The position numbers were made by a program, and so were the translations under genes. From positions 1 through 38,424 of the IMG/VR virus record IMGVR_UViG_3300048694_001055: a DNA stretch of 38,424 nucleotides; one strand, given 5' to 3'. Source of the DNA: a virus. Shown piece by piece: positions 1,139 to 38,424 of this stretch. The notes under the pieces are model-generated. The model searched no databases. It was given only the letters and a program-made list of their open reading frames with translations, and was not told the DNA's origin. Position 1 is the stretch's first letter. Every line of letters starts with the position of its first letter.

Positions 1139-1690
1139 TTAAATTATATCATACTTATTTTCATATTTTTCATCTGTTGTCCAAAATGAATTTATAGTAT
1201 ATCTTATTTTATTGTGTATTTCTTCAATACCGTGCAAAGTATCTCCCGTATGGGTTACAAGCATTCCTGGTTCTGGGCTTGTTTTAAAATTATACTCTGG
1301 ATAATATGTTTGACCGCCTTCATAATCATTATTTAAATAAATAATGCCTGCGTATTCTCTATGATGGAACCATTCTCCCCCTTCAACATCTGTATGTACT
1401 GGAAGGCTGGTATTTGGAAACCACCTAGCAATTTGAATTAAATCAGCATAGATTTTTTTATCTATTCCGTATAAATCTTTGATTGTTTTTTCCATCCTAT
1501 CTCTAATATCTAAAAGTAAAATTGATATTTCTTTTTTATTATTTTCTTGAAGAGAAAGTGGACTTAAGCTTTTATTATTCCAAAACTTTCCTCCACCTAA
1601 ATCCCATTCATCTATTGATGAAATACCTTTTAAAATAAAATCAATTTCATTTTTTGTTAAAATATTTTTATAAATTTTTATATTATTCAT
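1139..1690 (-). CDS. 2-oxoglutarate/Fe(II)-dependent oxygenase
   Basis: 183 residues from the ATG at 1688-1690. The frame stays open further upstream, but there it reads the complement of a proline-repeat gene as a His/Leu-rich artefact, so I reject the longer start. The chosen start overlaps the stop of the upstream gene by 8 nt, a geometry seen repeatedly in this genome. The motifs fit: H99-T-D101 for iron, GG at 125-126, distal H153 and R163 for 2-oxoglutarate. It differs in sequence from the neighbouring oxygenase at 487, so it is a second family member rather than a recent duplicate. The substrate is unknown. Confidence 0.85.
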   Translation of the reverse strand: MNNIKIYKNILTKNEIDFILKGISSIDEWDLGGGKFWNNKSLSPLSLQENNKKEISILLLDIRDRMEKTIKDLYGIDKKIYADLIQIARWFPNTSLPVHTDVEGGEWFHHREYAGIIYLNNDYEGGQTYYPEYNFKTSPEPGMLVTHTGDTLHGIEEIHNKIRYTINSFWTTDEKYENKYDII

Positions 1691-2630
1691 TTTTAACAAT
1701 AGGCATCGTTTTGAAATATGGTGGTACAACAGGTGGTGGTGCTGATGAGAAATATGGTGGTACAACAGGTGGAGGTGTTGCTGCAAAATATGGTGGTACA
1801 ACAGGTGGTGTACCTTTAAAGTATGGTGGTGGTGTAACAGGTGGAGTCGTGAAAGTTGGTGGTGTAACAGGTGGTGTAATTGGTGGTACAACAGGTGGGG
1901 TAATAGGTGGAGTACCTTTGAAGTATGGTGGTGGCACGACAGGTGGTGTAATAGGTGGTGTAACAGGTGGTGTAATAGGTGGTGGTGTAATTGGTGGCAC
2001 GACAGGTGGTGTAATTGGTGGCACGACAGGTGGTGTAATTGGTGGTGGTGTAATTGGTGGCACGACAGGTGGTGTAATTGGTGGCACGACAGGTGGTGTA
2101 ATAGGTGGTGGTGTAATTGGTGGCACGACAGGTGGTGTAATTGGTGGTGGTGTAATTGGTGGCACGACAGGTGGTGTAATTGGTGGTGGTGTAACAGGTG
2201 GTACAACAGGTGGTACAACAGGTGGTGTTACAGAAGTATCGTTGATAGTAATAGTAGAAGAATTTGCAACTACTGTACCAGTTGTAGAAACCGTTCTTAA
2301 ATTAATATTAAATGTTTCAGGGCCTTCTGTGGTTAAATCTGCAGCTAACGATAAAACAAATGATCCTGAATCTGCTGATATTGCAACAGATCCTCCAGAT
2401 GTTACAGCATTGGCGGGAGAACTAAAATCAGCATTATTTACAGTTCCAGATAGTCCTGTGATAGTCCAATATAAAGTTCCTGTACCAAAATTTCTTGTTG
2501 CTACTGTAAATGTTACTGAAGAACCTTCATTTACAGATGTTGTACTTGGAGTTATTGTATATGAGGGAATTCCAATTTGAAATCCATATCCTCTTGCTGA
2601 ACCCGCCCCAAATGCTCCAATTATTGGCAT
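1683..2630 (-). CDS. Calx-beta-like domain protein with long polyproline repeat tail
   Basis: 315 residues. Residues about 22-133 look like a Calx-beta or Ig-like beta-sandwich (VNEGSSVTF, EGPETFNINL, STITIND). From about residue 135 the chain consists of TPP/VPP/ITPP repeats, with three or four copies of a PPYFKGTPP-type unit near the end. Such a tail should form a stiff polyproline-II rod, and its translation probably depends on host EF-P. It follows the tail-fibre genes, so it is probably a virion-surface or adhesion protein (inference). I do not recognise a named family for the whole protein. It ends in an 8-nt overlap with the oxygenase at 1139. Confidence 0.75.
   Translation of the reverse strand: MPIIGAFGAGSARGYGFQIGIPSYTITPSTTSVNEGSSVTFTVATRNFGTGTLYWTITGLSGTVNNADFSSPANAVTSGGSVAISADSGSFVLSLAADLTTEGPETFNINLRTVSTTGTVVANSSTITINDTSVTPPVVPPVVPPVTPPPITPPVVPPITPPPITPPVVPPITPPPITPPVVPPITPPVVPPITPPPITPPVVPPITPPVVPPITPPPITPPVTPPITPPVVPPPYFKGTPPITPPVVPPITPPVTPPTFTTPPVTPPPYFKGTPPVVPPYFAATPPPVVPPYFSSAPPPVVPPYFKTMPIVKNE
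1715..2235. repeat. Imperfect tandem repeats encoding proline-rich tail
   Basis: About 500 bp built from short GGTGGTGTAATTGGTGG-like units (plus-strand reading) with GGCACGACAGGT and GTAACAGGT variants. The repetition occurs at two scales: 9-nt Pro-Pro-Thr/Ile units and longer blocks of several units. Many copies are identical at synonymous positions, which suggests recent expansion by slippage or recombination. Confidence 0.9.
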
Positions 2631-3520: not shown

Positions 3521-6500
3521 TTAAGCTTGTGCCTCAGTCCAAGAAATACGTCCTAGAACAGATTGGGCTGAAGTACCAACATTTGTTACAACAATTGTAA
3601 GAGTATCTGGTCCATCTGGATAGATTTGATTATTTGGGTATGAATTTCCACCAGCATATATTGAGTTACCTAAATCACGAACTGTTGATAAATCAATTGA
3701 TGCAGTGCTTGATGTAAAGAATCCACCAGTAACCTCACCACCTTGAATTTGATAGTTAGCTCCTGCGTAGTCTGAAATTTGTGCTAATGAAGAATTTGGT
3801 GTCATAGCTGCATTTCTAACAGCATTTGTCCATGTTGTATTTGCAGTTGATGATAAATTATAAACGTTACCATTCAAAACTGCTTGTACAAGAACGTTAC
3901 CTGATGCTCCAAGTAATGAAATATCTAGTGCTTTTGTTTGTAACTGCATACGATTCATAAGTTCACGAGAACCAAATGCTGCTGGGAAACCATTATCTAC
4001 AGAAGGAGCAATACGAATTGACATAAGAGCCTTAGTAGATCCTCCAGTAAATGTATATGTTCCAGAACCTGCTGTGGATAAAGTATTTGACAATGTAACT
4101 GTCCATGTTGGACTTACGCCAGTTACTGCTGTTACATAAGTTCCTGGCTGAATACCTGCTCCTGAAGCTACAAGTTGTCCTGGTACTGGTTGACCTGCTG
4201 TAACTGCTGATGTTGTAAGTACGTTTGTTGAAATTGTTCCTGTTGCTGTTACTGAAGTTGTTGTTGTTCCTCCAAGTAGTGTTGGCGTTGTTTGACCATA
4301 AGTAAAGAGAAGAGATTTATCATCATCAAAACGACCATCCATAATAACAGATGTTCCCCAGTGTGACATTGTTGGGTAGTAGGTTGGGAATGCTTGTTCA
4401 ACAACAACTGGTGCAGTTGCAGAATATGTAAATGCTTGTCCAGTTGTGACTGTAGTACCTGAAGTTGAACCTGCTGTTCCTGTTGTTACACCCATTGCAG
4501 GGAAATAAATTGTTGGGTTAGCTGTAGTTGGAGAAGCAGAAAGAATCAATACTGTGCTTGACCAAATTGCTTCAATTTTTGTATTATCTGGCAATGCTGC
4601 AGAAATTGCTCTCATGCCAACTTGTAATCCAGCTGTTGATGTTACTGTAGCAATATTTGAACCAACTGCCATTGTAGTTACAATACCTGTTGCTCCCGCT
4701 TGACCACGAGTAACACCAGTTAGTGTATTTGAAGTAACACCCGTATAGTTTACATATTCCCATGAAGATCCACTTCTAATTACTGCAGTTCCTGGATATG
4801 TATAGAATGTAGCATTACCTGTTGTTACAGTACCTGAATTTGCTACAGAAAGAGTTAAAGTATTTGTTGATGTATTAATTGCTGTAATTAAAGCACCTGC
4901 ACCAATACCTGTTACTGCTGGAGCAAACATTCCTACTGAAAGTCCAGTAGTTGATGCGACTGTAATTGTACTTTGCCCTGAAGTTCCTGCTGTAATATTT
5001 ACGGTTGCAGTTACAGGAACATACATACCTAACGTATTTGCAACGTTAATGGTTGTGTCAGATGCTGCTACTGATGCTGTTAATTGTGTTGATGCTGGCT
5101 GATTATTGCATTCATAACGACCTGGAAGGTTTCCAGATCTCATATATGCCATTGCATTTTGATTATTATTTTCTAACTTGTGACAGTAAACAATGTTTCC
5201 CTTTGGACCTCTAAAGCCCCAACGGATTGATCCTGCTCCATACCATGAATAATCAATATAAAACATTTGCATCTTAGTTAAATCTAAGTTATACCCAGAT
5301 GATCCAGTTCCATCAACTTTATCAATATTCCACATTGATTGTGGAATTCTTGTATCAATTGTTTTAGATACAATAACGTTTGTTGCTGTTGCTCCACGAT
5401 ATGCTGGTTGAATTGTTAAAGATGTATCTGATGCAATATCAAGAACTTTATATGATTGTCCACGCAATACAATGAAATCTCCTGGTACTAATTGCTTAGT
5501 AAATGTTGTAGGATAGTTTGTATTTGTTTGTGAAATTGTTGCTGATCCCGCCGTTACTGAAACACGTCCTGCAATTTGGAAAATTGATGAACGGCGAACT
5601 GCATATAATTGTTGTCCATCATGTTCAAAGAATACACCATTTTGTTGATCAAAAAGACCTAATCTATTTACAGAACCATTCCAAGAAGAAACTGAAACAT
5701 AGTAATTTCCTGATGCTGTAGCAGATGCTGGTGCGGTTCCTGGAGCATATGTAAATGTATTTAATCCTGTAGTTGAAGTTACGGCAAATGTTCCATTGTA
5801 TCCGCCTTCATTAGCACCAAATACTGTTACTTGGTATCCAGGTTGTAATCCGTGCTTTTCTTTTGTTTGAACTGTTACAAGACCAGTTCCTGATGCATAT
5901 GTTAATGAATCAATTCCGTATGTTGGCTTAATGATTGTTCCAGAAGAAATCTGAATACCCTTACCTGATTGATATCTAAAATAACGTCTTGTTTGACGCA
6001 CCTGTGCAGTGTTATTTGTACCACTATTTGTAGAGAAAATAACTCCACCATCAAAAGCACGGTGTGATACTTGAGATTGAGATCTTCCAAGCACTGTAGT
6101 TGCTAGTGTAACTGTTGTGGTTGATAATGCTGCAGTAACATTCTGAGAAAGAGTAATTACTGTTCCTTGAATTCCAGCAACATATGTATTTACTGGAATA
6201 CCAGTTCCTGTAATTAACATTCCTGGAAGAATATTTGTTGCTGATGCAACTGTACCAGTATTAGCACCTGCAGAAATAGTAGCAGTTGTAGTAAATGTTC
6301 CAGCTGTTGTCAATGTTGTTGGTGCTGTTGCTACATAATATGTAAATACTGTTGGAGATGTAACCGTAGCAACAATAAATGTACCATTTGGCGGATTTGC
6401 TGATGCAATTGATCCAATCATAGAAATTTCATTTCCAATATGTAATCCATGTGGGGATGCTGTTGTAACTGTAATTAAATTACCTGATGATGCTAGTGTT

Positions 6501-28781: not shown

Positions 28782-29816
28782 ATGACGAATCTCGCTCATG
28801 AAAAAGAAATTGCAGATAATTCTGTAACTTTCGCTCTCGTTAATTCCCGCTCAAATCCTGCATGGCATTCTGCTGCTAATCATGTATGGAATACAGATGA
28901 GGAACAGCCTACAATTAAGCAAATCATGGATTCTGCTAAATTATCAAATTGGAATGTTCGCTTAGAGCCTGTTTCAGAATTGGCTACACAGCATAATTTT
29001 CTAACAGAATCTTTCTTAGTTGTTCGTGATAACCCGCACAAGGCTAATGCTACAGATGTTTTATCTGTTGTAGGTTCACGCTATAAAGAAGTTCAGAATG
29101 AAGACTTATTCGCATTCGCTGAAAATCTTCACGATTCAAACCCTGAAGTAACTGTAGATTCTGCAGGTTCATTCAAGAATGGGCGTGTTGTATTTGGTTC
29201 ATGGTCTGTCCCGCAAACTTTAGTTCTTGACCCTAAAGGTGCTAATGATAAAACTAATTTGTATTTAGTTGTTTACACTAGCCATGATGGTTCTGTTGCT
29301 GTTCAAGCAGCAATTACACCTGTTCGTGTTCGCTGTCAGAATACACTTAATTTTGCTATGCGTAGTGCAAAGCAATCTTTCAAGATTCGCCACACTCAAA
29401 CTGTAGATGGAAAAATTGCACAGGCTCGTGAAGCCTTAAATCTATCTGTTGCTTATATGGACGAGTTTAGCAAAGAAGCAGAAATGCTATTTCAGCGTGA
29501 AGTTACAGATAAGAAATTTTCTGAAATTATTAACGCTATTTACCCAAAGCCTGAAACTGATAAAAAGGGTTCATTAACTAAATGGGAAAATAAAGTTGTA
29601 TTGCTTGACGAGTTGTATCACAATTCAGAAACCAATGCTAATATCAAAGGAACAGCATGGGGAGCATTAAATGCTTTCACAGAACGCCTTGATTATTTCC
29701 GCACTGCCCGTAAAAATGGTGGCGAATCACTTATTTATTCTGCAAGTGGTTTTGACCCTGTTATCACAGCAGAAAAAAATAATATCAAGAAAAAAATTCT
29801 TGCACTAACAGCGTAA
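28782..29816 (+). CDS. DUF932 / TIGR03299 phage-plasmid protein
   Basis: 344 residues. VLSVVGSRYKEVQNEDLFAFAENL, VFGSWSVPQ, LYLVVYTSHDGSVAVQAAITPVRVRCQNTL and the helical segment KIRHTQTVDGKIAQAREAL are characteristic of DUF932, a family widespread on phages and plasmids; the length is typical. The biochemical role is not established. It is the largest early gene, monocistronic, with its own strong promoter and GAAAGGA, so it is probably made in quantity early. A tRNA gene follows. Confidence 0.88.
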   Translation: MTNLAHEKEIADNSVTFALVNSRSNPAWHSAANHVWNTDEEQPTIKQIMDSAKLSNWNVRLEPVSELATQHNFLTESFLVVRDNPHKANATDVLSVVGSRYKEVQNEDLFAFAENLHDSNPEVTVDSAGSFKNGRVVFGSWSVPQTLVLDPKGANDKTNLYLVVYTSHDGSVAVQAAITPVRVRCQNTLNFAMRSAKQSFKIRHTQTVDGKIAQAREALNLSVAYMDEFSKEAEMLFQREVTDKKFSEIINAIYPKPETDKKGSLTKWENKVVLLDELYHNSETNANIKGTAWGALNAFTERLDYFRTARKNGGESLIYSASGFDPVITAEKNNIKKKILALTA

Positions 29817-30050: not shown

Positions 30051-30130
30051 CCACGTGCGTGTGATCAAAATCACAATTACGATATGTCCTATTTATCCCA
30101 TAATTACGAATTACGATCTATAAATTACGA
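30051..30130 (+). promoter_or_regulatory. CCACGTG, exact Crp-like palindrome and four ATTACGA boxes
   Basis: CCACGTG (30051-30057), TGTGA-TCAAAA-TCACA (30060-30075), then ATTACGA at 30076, 30103, 30110 and 30124. The Crp-like site is 89 bp from the -10, further than in the other leaders. Confidence 0.68.
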
Positions 30131-33622: not shown

Positions 33623-33961
33623 ATGGGAGCTAGAACTAATTACACAATCATCACTACTGACAATCCCGCACAGAATATTAATGTGTATGCACACTGGGAT
33701 GGTGAAGAAGGACCGTCTATTCTGTGGGGTGCTGTAAAGGCAGCAAAGCCACGCTGGAACGATACCTCATATGCAACCCGCATTATTGTAGACCAACTCA
33801 CAAAGGGCGGGAGAGATTCAGAAACAGGCTATGGTTTATATGTAGGAGAAATAGACCATGAAGAAGAATATGAATATAAGGAAGTAAACTTAGTTAATCA
33901 TACTGTCACTATTGCTAGTCAAACATTTAAACTTGACGAATACATAAATGCAGTGGTATAA
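33623..33961 (+). CDS. Conserved phage protein
   Basis: 112 residues. NYTIITTDNPAQNINVYAHWDGEEG, then AAKPRWNDTSYATRIIVDQL, resembles a family common in Caudoviricetes of actinobacteria, probably beta-rich; function unknown. Last gene of the rightward early block; a strong terminator follows. Confidence 0.7.
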   Translation: MGARTNYTIITTDNPAQNINVYAHWDGEEGPSILWGAVKAAKPRWNDTSYATRIIVDQLTKGGRDSETGYGLYVGEIDHEEEYEYKEVNLVNHTVTIASQTFKLDEYINAVV

Positions 33962-33998
33962 TAGATATGCAAATATAAGTCCTAACTCATAGGCAACC

Positions 33999-34040
33999 AA
34001 GACCCTCACGGATTCGGGACCGTGGGGGTCTTTCTCTTTT
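33999..34040 (+). terminator. Strong rho-independent terminator
   Basis: A 13-bp stem (33999-34011 with 34020-34032, one G-T pair), 8-nt loop, then TCTCTTTT. It closes the early block before the origin region. Confidence 0.88.
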
Positions 34041-34430
34041 CCCACCTGCAATGTATCTTTATTTTATCATATAATATATTCATAAAGTTCTACCTGCAAA
34101 AATAGCTTTGGGCGGGATTACGAAGGACCCTAAATTTCACCAGATCCTATCAAAAATACCATTACGAAAACACATATAAAAACATATAGAATATAAAAGA
34201 ATATTAAAATAAATAAGCATTTATGAACAGATAATGTTCAAATTGAACATATTTTGTTCAAATAATGCATAAAAAAATATATGACCATATAATGACCATA
34301 TTACGATTGACAATATAAATCATATGTGATATGCAAATATATGGTCATATGGCTATTTGACATATAAAATAGGGTTGTGGTATATTACGAACCGTGCATA
34401 TAGGCTGTATTATAACCTAATACACATATC
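34041..34430. other. AT-rich gene-free region beside DnaA boxes
   Basis: No plausible gene. Contains GTTCAA/TTGAAC half-sites forming palindromes (TGTTCAA-A-TTGAACA at 34235-34249; TGAACA-N5-TGTTCA at 34224-34240), TGACCATAT at 34282 and 34293 with its inverse at 34339, and ATTACGA at 34117, 34161, 34300 and 34384. Fits an unwinding region with initiator or regulator sites. Confidence 0.65.
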
Positions 34431-34582
34431 TGTGGATAACCTGTGGATAAATATCAAAAAAGGGTATATTTATCTACACTATTCTCCACAATACTCCACT
34501 ATTATCCACTATATAAGCTTATTTATACATAGTCCAATAAGAAATACCCTGTGGATAAGTATAATGTAATGCGTGTGGATTA
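34431..34582. other. Probable replication origin: DnaA-box cluster
   Basis: Exact TGTGGATAA (inverse of TTATCCACA) at 34431-34439, 34442-34450 and 34550-34558. One-mismatch copies at 34470-34478, 34482-34490, 34502-34510 and 34574-34582. Boxes occur in both orientations and the first two are in tandem, 2 bp apart. Next to an AT-rich stretch this is the layout of a DnaA-dependent origin. Confidence 0.75.
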
Positions 34583-34749
34583 GATAGATCTAATATACAA
34601 TCTGGCGGGATAATTAAATGATCTGAGCATACAAATTTAATGAAGGCTCCTTCAGCTATAATATCAATGCTCTTATTCTGACAATATGCACATATAGATG
34701 ATTTCTTCTTATTAGATTCTCTTATGTAATATAGGTATTTATTTGACAT
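34519..34749 (-). CDS. Small zinc-binding-like protein overlapping origin
   Basis: 76 residues. CAYC, then FVCSDH 18 residues later, gives a C-x2-C...C-x2-H set. The 3' part of the gene overlaps the last two DnaA boxes. The ribosome site is weak. No family known. Confidence 0.55.
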   Translation of the reverse strand: MSNKYLYYIRESNKKKSSICAYCQNKSIDIIAEGAFIKFVCSDHLIIPPDCILDLSNPHALHYTYPQGISYWTMYK

Positions 34750-34770
34750 TCCCGCATCTGTTTTCGCTCA

Positions 34771-35310
34771 TTAAAGTCCCGCTTTATTTATAGCTGATAT
34801 AAGAGATTTATACCAACCATATGAGGTATATGAAGCTCCTGATACAGCAGATATATTGGCACTTTGTGCTGCAAGGGTTTCTTGGCGTAATGTGGCTATT
34901 GCTGTTTTATTTAATTCTCCACTTTTACCAGTATTTGGATACTGAACTGCTTGGGCATCTATTATCTTATTATCTTGTATTACGATCTTAACCTGCATAT
35001 TGCCATAGCTTATATCTACTGCATCCCCCATAAAAGTACCGTTTATAGCCTGTATAACAGGCTTAGGGGCTTCTGTAGGGTTAGATATAGGTGTATCTGT
35101 TGGTGTAGGTTTTACCTGTATATCTGTTTTTATAAGTGTTGATGTATTTAAAGATACATTACGATTAGTTGTTTTTATCTGTGTACTTCCACCAGATATT
35201 GGCAAAACTACTGGGGTTACATTATTTTGATATAGATTAGGTGGATTAATTAATAAAACAGTTGTTAAGCTAATAAATATACCATTAGCTATAATTAATT
35301 CTCTTTTCAA
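34771..35310 (-). CDS. Membrane-anchored FMN-binding domain protein
   Basis: 179 residues. Residues 5-22 form a membrane anchor, 30-88 a Thr/Pro-rich linker, and 90-179 an FMN_bind domain: GTFMGDAVDISYGNMQVKIVI, and AVSGASYTSYG (157-165), where the NqrC/RnfG-like SGAT motif would hold FMN; here the flavinylation Thr is replaced by Ser or by T162. Such proteins pass electrons across the envelope. A phage copy is unusual. The start abuts the stop of the Ser/Pro-rich gene. Confidence 0.82.
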   Translation of the reverse strand: MKRELIIANGIFISLTTVLLINPPNLYQNNVTPVVLPISGGSTQIKTTNRNVSLNTSTLIKTDIQVKPTPTDTPISNPTEAPKPVIQAINGTFMGDAVDISYGNMQVKIVIQDNKIIDAQAVQYPNTGKSGELNKTAIATLRQETLAAQSANISAVSGASYTSYGWYKSLISAINKAGL

Positions 35311-35811
35311 TTAGTGATCGTTTCCTTCATTTTCTGAATGAGAAGGTCTAGGCGTAGGTGTTCTTGTAGGTCTAGGAGAAGGATTTCCTGTTCCCCCGCC
35401 ACTTCCTGGAGCTGGAACATATGTTGACCCTGATGCACTAGTAACTCCTGTAATAGTAGGAGGCATAGTAATTGGATTTAAAGTCTGTGTAACCAACGGA
35501 GTTGGTTTAACGGACGGGGCGGAAGCAGAATTACTTGCACTAGGTTGTGCACTTGTTTGTGCACTTGGCGTAGAAGATAAAGTTGGAGATGCTGAACTTC
35601 CTGCTGGAGCAGGATTTAGCATTACTGAATAATTTGATTGAGATTTACCTTTTGAATAATAAATAGTTTTTGGAGAGTTTGATGCATTTGGAATAATATC
35701 AGTAGAATTTTCAGGCTGAATATTATTATTAATTAATGATGCACCACCAAATATAATGGCTAAATCAGCAGCTATTATTCCTGCAACCTTTGCAGCTTTT
35801 TTTGTAGCCAT
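35311..35811 (-). CDS. Membrane-anchored Ser/Pro-rich protein
   Basis: 166 residues. A short basic N-terminus and one hydrophobic helix (VAGIIAADLAIIFGGASLI), then an extended Ser/Pro/Thr/Ala-rich region ending in PRPTRTPTPRPSHSE. It resembles a wall-spanning or surface-exposed stalk. Directly upstream of the FMN-binding gene, with which it probably works. Starts as TAATG. Confidence 0.7.
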   Translation of the reverse strand: MATKKAAKVAGIIAADLAIIFGGASLINNNIQPENSTDIIPNASNSPKTIYYSKGKSQSNYSVMLNPAPAGSSASPTLSSTPSAQTSAQPSASNSASAPSVKPTPLVTQTLNPITMPPTITGVTSASGSTYVPAPGSGGGTGNPSPRPTRTPTPRPSHSENEGNDH

Positions 35812-35966
35812 TATGCCACAGGTGTATCAATAGTATATTGAATACCATTAATATCGCACCAATACTTTGCTTCATCTAATGAATTAAATACAGTTGTATT
35901 ATTTGTTCCTTCTTCATTGACTGCCCAAAATTTTGGGATAAGTGTATCTGATATTACGAATGTCAT
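35811..35966 (-). CDS. Hypothetical small protein
   Basis: 51 residues (FVISDTLIPKFWAVNEEGTNNTTVFNSLDEAKYW), the style of small actinophage proteins. AAGGAG precedes the ATG by six bases. Ends as TAATG. Confidence 0.63.
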   Translation of the reverse strand: MTFVISDTLIPKFWAVNEEGTNNTTVFNSLDEAKYWCDINGIQYTIDTPVA

Positions 35967-35982
35967 ATTTTCTCCTTAATTT

Positions 35983-35988
35983 ATTATA
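35983..35988 (-). promoter_or_regulatory. Candidate -10 box for FMN-binding operon
   Basis: TATAAT on the minus strand, 16 bp before the ATG at 35966. The -35 is weak (TGATAT at 16-bp spacing). Confidence 0.45.
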
Positions 35989-35991
35989 CCA

Positions 35992-36111
35992 TTAATCAGC
36001 CCATATATCATTTATATTGGGATGTCCTTTTAATATATTAAAAGTTATAAATGCAGTTATAGCCATGATAATGGCTAGGATTACTGCGGATGTTTTCAGT
36101 TTTCGGCTCAC
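35992..36111 (-). CDS. Small membrane protein, GTG start
   Basis: 39 residues, one hydrophobic span (SAVILAIIMAITAFITFNIL). The GTG start shares one base with the previous TAG (TAGTG). No family. Confidence 0.52.
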   Translation of the reverse strand: MSRKLKTSAVILAIIMAITAFITFNILKGHPNINDIWAD

Positions 36112-36275
36112 TATTTGCCCCAACCTGTGTTATTAGGCTTATATCTTTTATAAGCTATAGGATCTTTAAATCTATCTCTGATCCAATGCCATTCATGTAT
36201 TTCTAAGCCAATTTCTTTTGCGTAATTTGCCCCTGTTTGGTAATCGCTTGTCATGATTATGTATTGCGGAGTCAT
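36111..36275 (-). CDS. Hypothetical small protein
   Basis: 54 residues from the ATG in an ATGA overlap (MTPQYIIMTSDYQTGANYAKEIGLEIHEWHW). An in-frame ATG at 36296 is earlier but lies within the next upstream gene. Resembles small actinophage proteins with alpha/beta pattern. Confidence 0.6.
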   Translation of the reverse strand: MTPQYIIMTSDYQTGANYAKEIGLEIHEWHWIRDRFKDPIAYKRYKPNNTGWGK

Positions 36276-36355
36276 TCTTTTTCCGCCCATTTCCATAAAT
36301 AATCAATTAGCTTTTTATAAGCTAAACCTAATATAAATCCTATCACAAACGTCAC
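36272..36355 (-). CDS. Tiny membrane protein, GTG start
   Basis: 27 residues (VTFVIGFILGLAYKKLIDYLWKWAEKE). GGAG five bases before the GTG, and GTGA/ATGA overlaps on both sides, support translation. Short enough to be doubtful. Confidence 0.45.
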   Translation of the reverse strand: MTFVIGFILGLAYKKLIDYLWKWAEKE

Positions 36356-36531
36356 TTCAACTCCTTCTCAATAGCCCGCCAATCTTTCCAACTTCCGTAG
36401 AAGTCATACTTTTGCACTACTTTATAGATTTTCCCGCAATCGCATACCCACATTTGACCAATCTTCCATCTAAAAGATAAACGAGGAGCCTTGCACCAAT
36501 CTTGATAACCTTTATTGTGTTTTTGTATCAT
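36352..36531 (-). CDS. Small zinc-binding-like protein
   Basis: 59 residues. VCDCGKIYKVVQ is a small metal-site hairpin. The C-terminus (WRAIEKELK) recalls the end of the next upstream protein (IQAIEKELG). Starts in an ATGA overlap. Confidence 0.58.
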   Translation of the reverse strand: MIQKHNKGYQDWCKAPRLSFRWKIGQMWVCDCGKIYKVVQKYDFYGSWKDWRAIEKELK

Positions 36532-36782
36532 CCTAACTCCTTCTCAATAGCCTGAATAGTTGGGCAGGGATACTTAGCATATCCTCTACCTTCCGCACAT
36601 TGATTACACCATACAGGCCCTTCTGGTTTATCTGGGTAGTAAATTGGCTTATGCAATTCAACTACTGCACGAAGGGCTTGTTCACATTTGGTTCCATCTG
36701 CGGCATACTCAGAGAATCCACTTTGAGCATAACCAATTGAAATATGTAAATCTATTAACTTTAACAATTCTTCATGGGTCAT
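36528..36782 (-). CDS. Conserved actinophage protein (YPCPTIQAIEKEL family)
   Basis: 84 residues from the ATG in an ATGA overlap; the frame is open to 36836, but that part is the shadow of the next gene. ALRAVVELHKP, C-x2-C (WCNQCAEG) and YPCPTIQAIEKEL match a family I recall from actinophages, function unknown. A metal site of three cysteines is likely. Confidence 0.7.
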   Translation of the reverse strand: MTHEELLKLIDLHISIGYAQSGFSEYAADGTKCEQALRAVVELHKPIYYPDKPEGPVWCNQCAEGRGYAKYPCPTIQAIEKELG

Positions 36783-36913
36783 AACAATTCTTTCATATTT
36801 GAATCTATTTCTCCGTCTGTATGTTGATCTTCCCATGGTAATTTGGGATTAATTAAACGCCAATTGCTTCCCGTCTTTGGGTCTGGAGTATGCCAATCAA
36901 AGTCGTTAGTCAT
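36779..36913 (-). CDS. Small acidic protein
   Basis: 44 residues (FDWHTPDPKTGSNWRLINPKLPWEDQHTDGE). No family. 8-nt overlap upstream and ATGA overlap downstream. Confidence 0.52.
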   Translation of the reverse strand: MTNDFDWHTPDPKTGSNWRLINPKLPWEDQHTDGEIDSNMKELL

Positions 36914-37166
36914 ATTTTTCCATCAAGTCTACTAAACAATTTGTGCAAATAACTGGAAAATTCTCATATTTTTTAAGTATAACTACATATGCCAATTTTT
37001 CATAACAATGTGAACATTTTAATGTAGTTCCACGCTCTTCATGAATAATAGCATTTACAACTGAATTATACATTTGTTCAGGCAAATCTAATTCAATTTT
37101 AGTCCACTTGCCTAACGGCCAACGGATAGGAGATTGAATATACCATTCTTTACCTAATTTAATCAT
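36906..37166 (-). CDS. Zinc-ribbon protein
   Basis: 86 residues. C-x2-C (KCSHCYEK) and C-x2-C (ICTNCLVD) about 23 residues apart form a zinc ribbon at the C-terminus. The role is unknown. 8-nt overlaps with both neighbours. Confidence 0.65.
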   Translation of the reverse strand: MIKLGKEWYIQSPIRWPLGKWTKIELDLPEQMYNSVVNAIIHEERGTTLKCSHCYEKLAYVVILKKYENFPVICTNCLVDLMEKYD

Positions 37167-37350
37167 TTGTAATTCTTTCTTTATCGCATCTTAAACAAAC
37201 TTCAACATTAGTACCCATTATACCCACCCAAAAATGAAATGTCAATAGGCATTTGGCATATCCATATAAACGATATAACCACCAAGTATATTTAAATAAA
37301 TTGCTTTGAAGATACCACCATTTAAATTTATTTATTATATAGACCACCAT
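37159..37350 (-). CDS. Small Trp/Tyr-rich protein with C-x2-C
   Basis: 63 residues, aromatic-rich first half (NKFKWWYLQSNLFKYTWWLYRLYGYAKCLL), perhaps membrane-associated, ending in CLRCDKERI. Overlaps the upstream gene by 16 nt and the downstream gene by 8 nt. Confidence 0.55.
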   Translation of the reverse strand: MVVYIINKFKWWYLQSNLFKYTWWLYRLYGYAKCLLTFHFWVGIMGTNVEVCLRCDKERITND

Positions 37351-37499
37351 TCTCGTACAGTATAGAAAAGACCTTTTTCTTCTCTATGTTTACGTCTTGT
37401 TTCAGCTATAAGTTCCCAATTAGTTTTGTGACTGTCCCCGCCACATAATTCGCATGGATCAAATTCTACTTCTTTATACACATGTTCACAATAACTCAT
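37335..37499 (-). CDS. Small zinc-binding-like phage protein
   Basis: 54 residues. PCELCGGDSHKTNWELIAETRRKHREEKGLF and EWWSI form a pattern I associate with small conserved phage proteins carrying a C-x2-C. Starts in an ATGA overlap with the methyltransferase stop. Confidence 0.62.
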   Translation of the reverse strand: MSYCEHVYKEVEFDPCELCGGDSHKTNWELIAETRRKHREEKGLFYTVREWWSI

Positions 37500-38080
37500 T
37501 TTGGCATAAACCTTCCTATAAAAAATCCTTCTGGGACATTATCAATTATTAATTCAGCATTATAATATTTTGAAATAATATCTAAAGCTTTTTTATTAGT
37601 TTTATATTGATTATATGGTTCATGCACAATTAAACATGATCCATTTTTGCTAACATTATTTAAAAAATCATCAATAAAAGATTCATTCCAATAATGAAAT
37701 GTCATTGATATAAGTATATCATCATATTTAATAGATTTTATATAATTTAAATCTGAACTTATAATTAAATTATCAAACTTATTGCTATCAGGAATAAGAT
37801 CTAGCATATTTTGAAAATCATAAGCATAAACTTTATTGTATTTGCTGGTCAAACTATAAAAATATTTACCAATCCCGCAGCCCATATCTAAAACAGTTCC
37901 AGATTTAAATAAATTTAAAACTTCTTTCCATTTAGGGATATTTTCAAAAGTAGTTGAATCTTGATACATTGATGCTACCGCCATTTGATAATCCGATATG
38001 CTTTGCCAATGCTTTTCAGCTCCAGAAATACAGTCAACGCATTCATTAAAACCTAAACCATGTAAGCATATTAGATTCAT
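37496..38080 (-). CDS. SAM-dependent methyltransferase, paralogue of 18637
   Basis: 194 residues. VLDMGCGIGKYFYSL is motif I, YAYDFQNMLDL the acidic loop, then IISSDLNYI, as in the 18637 protein. The N-terminus has an additional CLHGLGFNECVDC segment that could bind a metal. The substrate is unknown. 4-nt overlaps on both sides. Confidence 0.82.
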   Translation of the reverse strand: MNLICLHGLGFNECVDCISGAEKHWQSISDYQMAVASMYQDSTTFENIPKWKEVLNLFKSGTVLDMGCGIGKYFYSLTSKYNKVYAYDFQNMLDLIPDSNKFDNLIISSDLNYIKSIKYDDILISMTFHYWNESFIDDFLNNVSKNGSCLIVHEPYNQYKTNKKALDIISKYYNAELIIDNVPEGFFIGRFMPK

Positions 38081-38424
38081 AATACATTCCTAAATGGTTC
38101 TAACAATATGTCAAATACTTTAACATCTTTTACTATCAAAGCCTCAACGGTTGCTTTACCAAATAAATCAATATAAAAATCGGGATAATTTTTTAGTTCC
38201 CATTCTGGCCACCAAGATAAATTAAACATTTTATCTTCTTTGTGTTTCCACCAAGAACCTGGTTTTTCTATTTGCCAATTAGATTCAATCATTTTAGATA
38301 GATATTGCAATCTTGAATTATTTATAAAGTGTAATCTTAATTGTGATGTTTTTTTATAAATATCTTGATTTTCATAACTACTGCCTAACCAATTTAATTT
38401 AAAATTAGAATCCTTATTGTATTC
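38077..38424 (-). CDS. Hypothetical protein, N-terminus outside window
   Basis: 115 residues visible, open through the window edge; the first visible codon is not a start, so the gene begins further right. WQIEKPGSWWKHKED, then FNLSWWPEWELKNYPDFYIDLFGKATVEALIVKD, is aromatic-rich. I do not recognise it. It is coupled to the methyltransferase by a 4-nt overlap, so a shared pathway is possible. Confidence 0.65.
   Translation of the reverse strand, partial: EYNKDSNFKLNWLGSSYENQDIYKKTSQLRLHFINNSRLQYLSKMIESNWQIEKPGSWWKHKEDKMFNLSWWPEWELKNYPDFYIDLFGKATVEALIVKDVKVFDILLEPFRNVL

Follow-up and report, generated by a model that had tools for sequence, protein, structure and literature searches.

The initiator O of bacteriophage lambda binds iterons that lie inside gene O. 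In the same phage, DnaA-box-like sites are located downstream of pO, and DnaA stimulates the transcriptional activation of oriLambda (PMC3985674). Predicted DnaA boxes have also been reported in a Pseudomonas phage (PMC11512268), and DnaA sites surveyed in alphaproteobacterial phages showed no asymmetry of position (PMC9437464). We found no description of the start of replication in large virulent actinophages in the literature searched, and a search that was thin on subscription journals returned nothing linking Streptomyces phages with DnaA boxes. The present study concerns a cluster of such boxes in a 38,424-nucleotide stretch of viral DNA (hereafter the window; IMG/VR record IMGVR_UViG_3300048694_001055). 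Its sequence suggests that the cluster controls replication by binding host DnaA, probably as an origin that, like oriLambda, is activated from a promoter close by, a reading to which we give a little less than an even chance; the phages concerned are large actinobacteriophages, namely the Stanwilliamsviridae and their freshwater relatives. The locus resembles oriLambda in combining DnaA-box-like sites beside promoters with phage-encoded initiation proteins, but no initiator like lambda O was identified here, and the locus is intergenic, at a convergent junction. With bacterial oriC and plasmid origins it shares tandem and inverted TTATCCACA boxes at 11–24 bp spacing by an AT-rich stretch, whereas no dnaA or par genes and no skew signature were found with the phage locus, and its linkage of boxes to a repeat array was found in phages only. 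Like datA it is a noncoding cluster of DnaA boxes, but it differs from datA in having a promoter and phage-specific repeats.

The original prediction of three exact and four one-mismatch boxes within about 150 bp was reproduced exactly, the seven boxes spanning 152 bp (34431–34582). The exact TTATCCACA boxes, all on the minus strand, are at 34431–34439, 34442–34450, and 34550–34558, and the one-mismatch boxes are at 34470–34478 (plus strand, TTATCTACA), 34482–34490 (plus, TTCTCCACA), 34502–34510 (plus, TTATCCACT), and 34574–34582 (minus, TAATCCACA). The single further exact box in the window, at 4073, falls within a tail-type gene. Three exact boxes, or seven boxes of at most one mismatch, in an equal span arose in none of 400 simulations under a window-wide order-3 Markov model, and the cluster was matched in none of 20,000 simulations under a local AT-rich model fitted to the region's own sequence. 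The cluster is real and beyond chance, and its solid core is the tandem pair at 34431 and 34442. The convergent setting ascribed to it also held, with plus-strand ORFs stopping at 33961 and minus-strand ORFs occupying 34519–38310. The surroundings had been called gene-free as well, which is correct for 33962–34518 only; the boxes at 34550 and 34574 lie within the ORF at 34519–34749 (minus strand).

From left to right, the locus consists of a terminator hairpin, TTACGA(A) motifs, AT-rich palindromes, TTGACA sites with overlapping TTACGA, the DnaA boxes, and a TTCTCCACTnnGCTCCACTnnACTCCACT array with a 10-bp pitch. The left flanking gene (33623–33961, plus), which served as the query for relatives, encodes a 112-aa protein of PHROG 31860, of unknown function. 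Beyond it, an intrinsic-terminator-like hairpin with a T-rich tail (34000–34040, plus) closes the rightward gene block and recurs at the same position in six relatives (L005, L007, L008, L133, L259, and L261). Two TTACGAA motifs (34118–34123 and 34162–34167, plus) form a conserved upstream motif with invariant columns in a six-phage alignment. They are followed by AT-rich imperfect palindromes of the form GAACA..TGTTCAAATTGAACA..TGTTC (34225–34262), for which we infer an iteron role; relatives have different palindromes at the matching position. A TTACGA motif then precedes a promoter-like −35 element, TTGACA, that is conserved in the six-phage alignment (34301–34312, plus), and a rightward promoter-like TTGACA-N18-TATATT, with TTACGA overlapping and following the −10, occupies 34357–34390 (plus). 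The hairpin, the palindromes, and this last element were read in the sequence. A homologous promoter block, TTGACATTACG..TATGCTC.AT.AC, is present in 48 dereplicated elements. The exact box at 34431 is invariant in relatives, where it lies within a ATCTGTGGATAACCT block; the second, 11 bp from it, emerged from both the box scan and the six-phage alignment, and the box at 34470 from the box scan. A separate 10-bp direct repeat recovered by array scans, the CTCCACT array (34482–34510, plus; TTCTCCACA, TACTCCACT, TTATCCACT), takes in the one-mismatch boxes at 34482 and 34502; it is the homologue of a conserved TTCTCCACTnnGCTCCACT array that has a single copy in contigs of related phages. The two right-hand boxes, identified by box scan and alignment, are coding sequence, because the ORF that covers them, which encodes a small conserved 76-aa protein with a CxxC motif and 68% identity to L259/L260, is conserved through the peptide LHYTYPQG, encoded over the box at 34550; this box lies in the 3′ part of the ORF and encodes part of TYPQ.

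TTACGA motifs number 19 on the plus strand of the window and 3 on the minus strand, and their tandem arrangement suggests an operator for a phage regulator across the early region. Tandem copies, often ~22–23 bp apart and overlapping a promoter-like TTGACA, were seen at window positions 30077–30130 and in two other contigs (L006, 6509–6585; L009, 6730–6781). For the transcript running from promoter to array, the consensus RNA structure was weak and nothing stood out, and an Rfam search of the window returned no match except one tRNA.

The window is a 38-kb fragment of a virus, a 3-kb stretch of which had no DNA match among 50,697 isolated phages. In uncultured relatives the boxes are kept at the same syntenic spot. 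The 112-aa flanking protein led to six relatives in IMG/VR, three of which (L005, L007, and L008) have a homologous intergenic locus with three to four exact boxes each; in L007, two neighbors of the exact boxes carry one mismatch. An unbiased set of relatives was obtained via the DUF932 gene (28782–29816 in the window, plus), a syntenic anchor situated 4–5.5 kb upstream of the locus in relatives. Twelve loci were at least 74% identical and had enough downstream sequence; 10 of these contigs have two to four exact boxes 4–5.5 kb downstream of DUF932, and L262 and L265 have no box cluster downstream. The independent cases are fewer than 12, because L259 and L260 look near-identical and L263, L266, and L269 are contigs already met. 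At more distant DUF932 loci the locus is kept and the boxes are gone, and the sister clades L262, L265, L276–L278, L281, L285, and L286 lack boxes but retain the array, in most cases together with the promoter block. The Actinomycetia phage DSL-LC01, a weak match of the flanking protein, has neither an exact box nor an array.

In the six-phage alignment ATCTGTGGATAACCT is invariant and its flanks are variable. Three layouts occur: boxes directly upstream of the array (the window, L005, L007, L008, and G001), boxes 50–100 bp downstream of it (L131, L154, L159, L162, and L170), and a box pair ~360–440 bp upstream of it that also forms a T-tailed hairpin (G002, G004, L148, and L185). G001 is a genome of 112,158 bp with a 123-bp end overlap, and all three of its exact boxes are inside this cluster. 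Two extra intergenic box pairs were observed near DUF932 in G002 (66168–66197 and 68032–68063) and in G004 (112459 and 114080), with TTACG motifs between the boxes and G-rich and C-rich flanking arms.

A scan of IMG/VR for TTCTCCACTNNGCTCCACT returned 59 viral stretches, in 47 of which an exact DnaA box lies no more than 500 bp from the array, and 11 of 12 large records contain the array exactly once. Among 85,000 cellular genomes there were 35 array matches, scattered over unrelated taxa and without exception lacking an exact box within 500 bp; the linkage of CTCCACT array and boxes was found in phages only, and the possibility that the array mimics a host oriC was rejected on these grounds. 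Across the 48 elements, conservation is strongest in the promoter block and the CTCCACT array rather than in the boxes. Of 55 contigs, 5 (L153, L156, L169, L171, and L188) stop no more than 300 bp downstream of the array, against ~0.6 expected, an excess that may reflect the end of the genome, a shift in coverage, or a hypervariable site of insertion.

The underlying premise, that tailed phages seldom have DnaA boxes, proved weak. The tandem pair CTGTGGATAACCTGTGGAT is found in at least 120 IMG/VR stretches, and 79 of the 120 listed have at least three exact boxes within 300 bp; a DnaA gene was present in none of 50 contigs with the pair. DnaA boxes in phages are not rare. A triple unit, TTATCCACAGGnTTATCCACAnnnTGTGGAT, was encountered in L311, L318, L320, L343, and L366 and in 113 stretches, in unrelated settings, sometimes as a T-tailed hairpin and sometimes doubled.

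The closest isolates are Streptomyces BE/BK phages of the Stanwilliamsviridae (RNR, 66%; DnaB of G001, 62%; DUF932, 49%), and WhiB together with the shared replication, RNR, and DUF932 genes places the window's phage, on sequence criteria, as a Stanwilliamsviridae-like actinophage. WhiB is encoded in six of the seven records, the window fragment being the one that lacks it, and indicates actinobacterial hosts, for which it has already served as a marker (PMC6802176). Samistivirus (BE1, for example Jay2Jay) resembles the window in having an inverted box pair 22–24 bp apart, a TTGACA-like promoter, and TTACGA on the same side of DUF932, but differs in that an 11.4-kb direct terminal repeat (DTR) has its boundary right beside the boxes and in that no CTCCACT array was found. 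A box pair with at least one exact member and a partner of at most one mismatch is present at the junction in all 11 Samistivirus genomes inspected, the DTR boundary having been located in Jay2Jay only. There the junction reads TTATCCACA-N13-TGTGGATAA and then TTGACA; the boxes lie 52 bp outside the DTR start (122094), the terminal repeat is 11,438 bp long, and six copies of the TTACGAA motif stand at its end. These junction boxes were found in the present analysis, and no description of them was met in the literature searched.

In Annadreamy, Byblos, Moab, and Muntaha (Loccivirinae or relatives), three exact boxes lie in a homologous gene-free region. In Muntaha the ~30-bp box unit is inverted and 93% identical, and this conservation despite inversion is as expected of a binding unit. 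The Annadreamy gap (118436–119921), the largest in the stretch read, shares with the window three exact boxes, palindromic repeats (here GTTCAAC), and TTACGA motifs, but differs in being at neither a convergent junction nor a DTR. Because the Annadreamy DTR is short (789 bp) and ~6 kb from the boxes, it is the noncoding locus, not the genome end, that the boxes track. A further difference from the window is a 134-nt noncoding stretch beside the Loccivirinae boxes (L298, 13912–14045) that is 74% identical to one in the tectivirus Forthebois (L398, 3428–3560), an unrelated Streptomyces virus in which the counterpart is intergenic and beside the DNA polymerase gene.

G001 encodes DnaB_C, a Toprim/Zn-ribbon primase, and RecA, and its 1090-aa protein has a PHP-like start that gives the impression of Pol III alpha. 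The annotation of Jay2Jay lists helicase, primase, SSB, and Pol III, with DNA polymerase III at the place corresponding to the G001 1090-aa gene. Among the seven records, two of which (G000 and G012) are fragments, there was no match to the DnaA C-terminal domain (PF08299), ParA (PF13614), ParB (PF02195), or tyrosine integrase (PF00589). Use of host DnaA, as originally proposed, is plausible because the boxes are conserved, the phages have their own DnaB-, DnaG-, Pol III alpha-, and RecA-type proteins, and no DnaA homologue was found; status as an origin is supported neither by GC skew nor by the boxless sister clades, and a novel phage initiator may exist in these phages. The accompanying suggestion of an episomal or phage-plasmid stage is unsupported, since no DnaA, ParA, ParB, or tyrosine integrase was found in the seven records; cultured relatives of the BE cluster are presumed to be virulent (PMC10690885).

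At the locus, cumulative GC skew reaches or approaches its maximum, not its minimum (G004, G011, G012, and Jay2Jay), and third-position skew there has the wrong sign for a bidirectional origin. Both measures are confounded by gene orientation and gene class, and Annadreamy, in which gene orientation does not change at the locus, has no skew shift. GC skew follows gene orientation, with a sign opposite to that of an origin, and was dropped as origin evidence. It also counts against an origin here that its forks would meet most genes head-on. The region is AT-rich, as predicted, but unexceptionally so for an AT-rich phage: its helix-stability rank is 5–8 in the window and 6–17 in the complete relative G001, and helix instability was likewise dropped, the region being no extreme. 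Further evidence against an origin comes from satellites: MulchRoom, which has no replication genes and depends on a Samistivirus, has no exact DnaA box, and MiniFlayer has one, unpaired. MulchRoom (L402, 9460–9697) and Samistivirus phages including the helper (L295, 18468–18698) have in common a 240-bp noncoding segment at 72%, which in Jay2Jay lies away from the boxes, at a divergent gene junction and at the cumulative GC-skew minimum (18538). This segment has no Rfam match; it may represent an origin or a noncoding RNA common to both, and because it looks terminator-flanked and self-complementary, possibly an RNA, it was not counted as a second origin.

In the oriLambda-like model that we favor, host DnaA would bind the tandem or inverted TTATCCACA boxes, and rightward transcription from the adjacent TTGACA promoter, if active, would join DnaA in opening the AT-rich DNA, with a phage factor probably acting at TTACGA, the palindromes, and/or the 10-bp CTCCACT array. 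The opened DNA would let the phage DnaB-type helicase, primase, and Pol III alpha load, the outcome being a host-DnaA-assisted, transcription-coupled origin with a mechanism like the DnaA-stimulated activation of oriLambda. This model fits the presence of boxes, promoter, repeats, and AT-rich DNA together at a single conserved noncoding site, in phages with a replisome and no recognized initiator. A more elaborate version is distinctly unlikely: a composite origin of DnaA boxes, promoter with TTACGA operator, and CTCCACT iterons beside the genome end, at which initiation would also duplicate the long terminal repeat during concatemer processing. On its sequence features, the locus is a good candidate for an origin of replication, or a control switch, that works with help from host DnaA. 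It is common to uncultured freshwater phages and laboratory Streptomyces phages, which makes reliance on host DnaA testable in culture, including whether such reliance persists in phages that supply a helicase, primase, and polymerase themselves; in metagenomic genomes, the single-copy CTCCACT array and boxes provide a sequence handle for the same site.

The strongest rival, although somewhat unlikely, is a DnaA-controlled promoter that is no origin, at which DnaA, as a transcription factor, and a phage regulator at TTACGA would govern rightward transcription, the product being an RNA, noncoding or antisense, except in certain phages where inserted genes would be expressed. It would account for the promoter block and CTCCACT array outranking the boxes in conservation across the 48 elements, for the box–TTACGA–box modules that G002 and G004 have in two further intergenic places near DUF932, and for the tectivirus-like 134-nt stretch adjoining the Loccivirinae boxes. 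However, no RNA structure emerges clearly as a consensus, inspection by eye showed no intrinsic terminator after the array, and no coding target is evident, because in the window and in G002/G004 the first genes rightward occupy the opposite strand. Improbable, too, is an element of the genome end, or concatemer junction, whose boxes would flag the edge of the terminal repeat and function in packaging or in duplication of the ends. The Jay2Jay boxes 52 bp outside the DTR start, the TTACGA motifs filling the DTR end, and the excess of contig ends downstream of the array (5 versus ~0.6) speak for it, but the Annadreamy boxes are ~6 kb from the 789-bp DTR.

That a phage-encoded protein rather than DnaA occupies the TTATCCACA-like sites, as look-alike operators or iterons, is also improbable: the CTCCACT array has the TCCAC core too, was found box-linked in phages only, and persists without boxes, but the boxes match the bacterial DnaA consensus exactly, both in Streptomyces phages and in those of freshwater actinobacteria, and many viral contigs that are unrelated have similar units. 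Still less probable is a datA-like sponge, through which multiplying phage genomes would titrate host DnaA and stop initiation on the host chromosome. Several strong boxes per genome multiplied by many phage copies could achieve this, yet most relatives have only two to four strong boxes at the locus, and titration needs neither pairing with a promoter nor a fixed position. Finally, a chance cluster or terminator by-product, in which hairpins or codons happen to hold TTATCCACA, is extremely improbable; the box pair does form a T-tailed hairpin in one clade and two window boxes are in coding sequence, but the 0/20,000 simulations and the conservation of the core pair across the family contradict it for that pair.

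Away from the locus, the window gene at 487–1125 resembles 2OG-Fe(II) oxygenases (PF13640), and several members of an adjacent gene series in G001 (L192, 5830–11732) look like such enzymes by eye. At 1683–2630 (minus) the window encodes a protein with a long TPPVVPPITPP repeat, owing to which the opposite strand is open for 308 codons.
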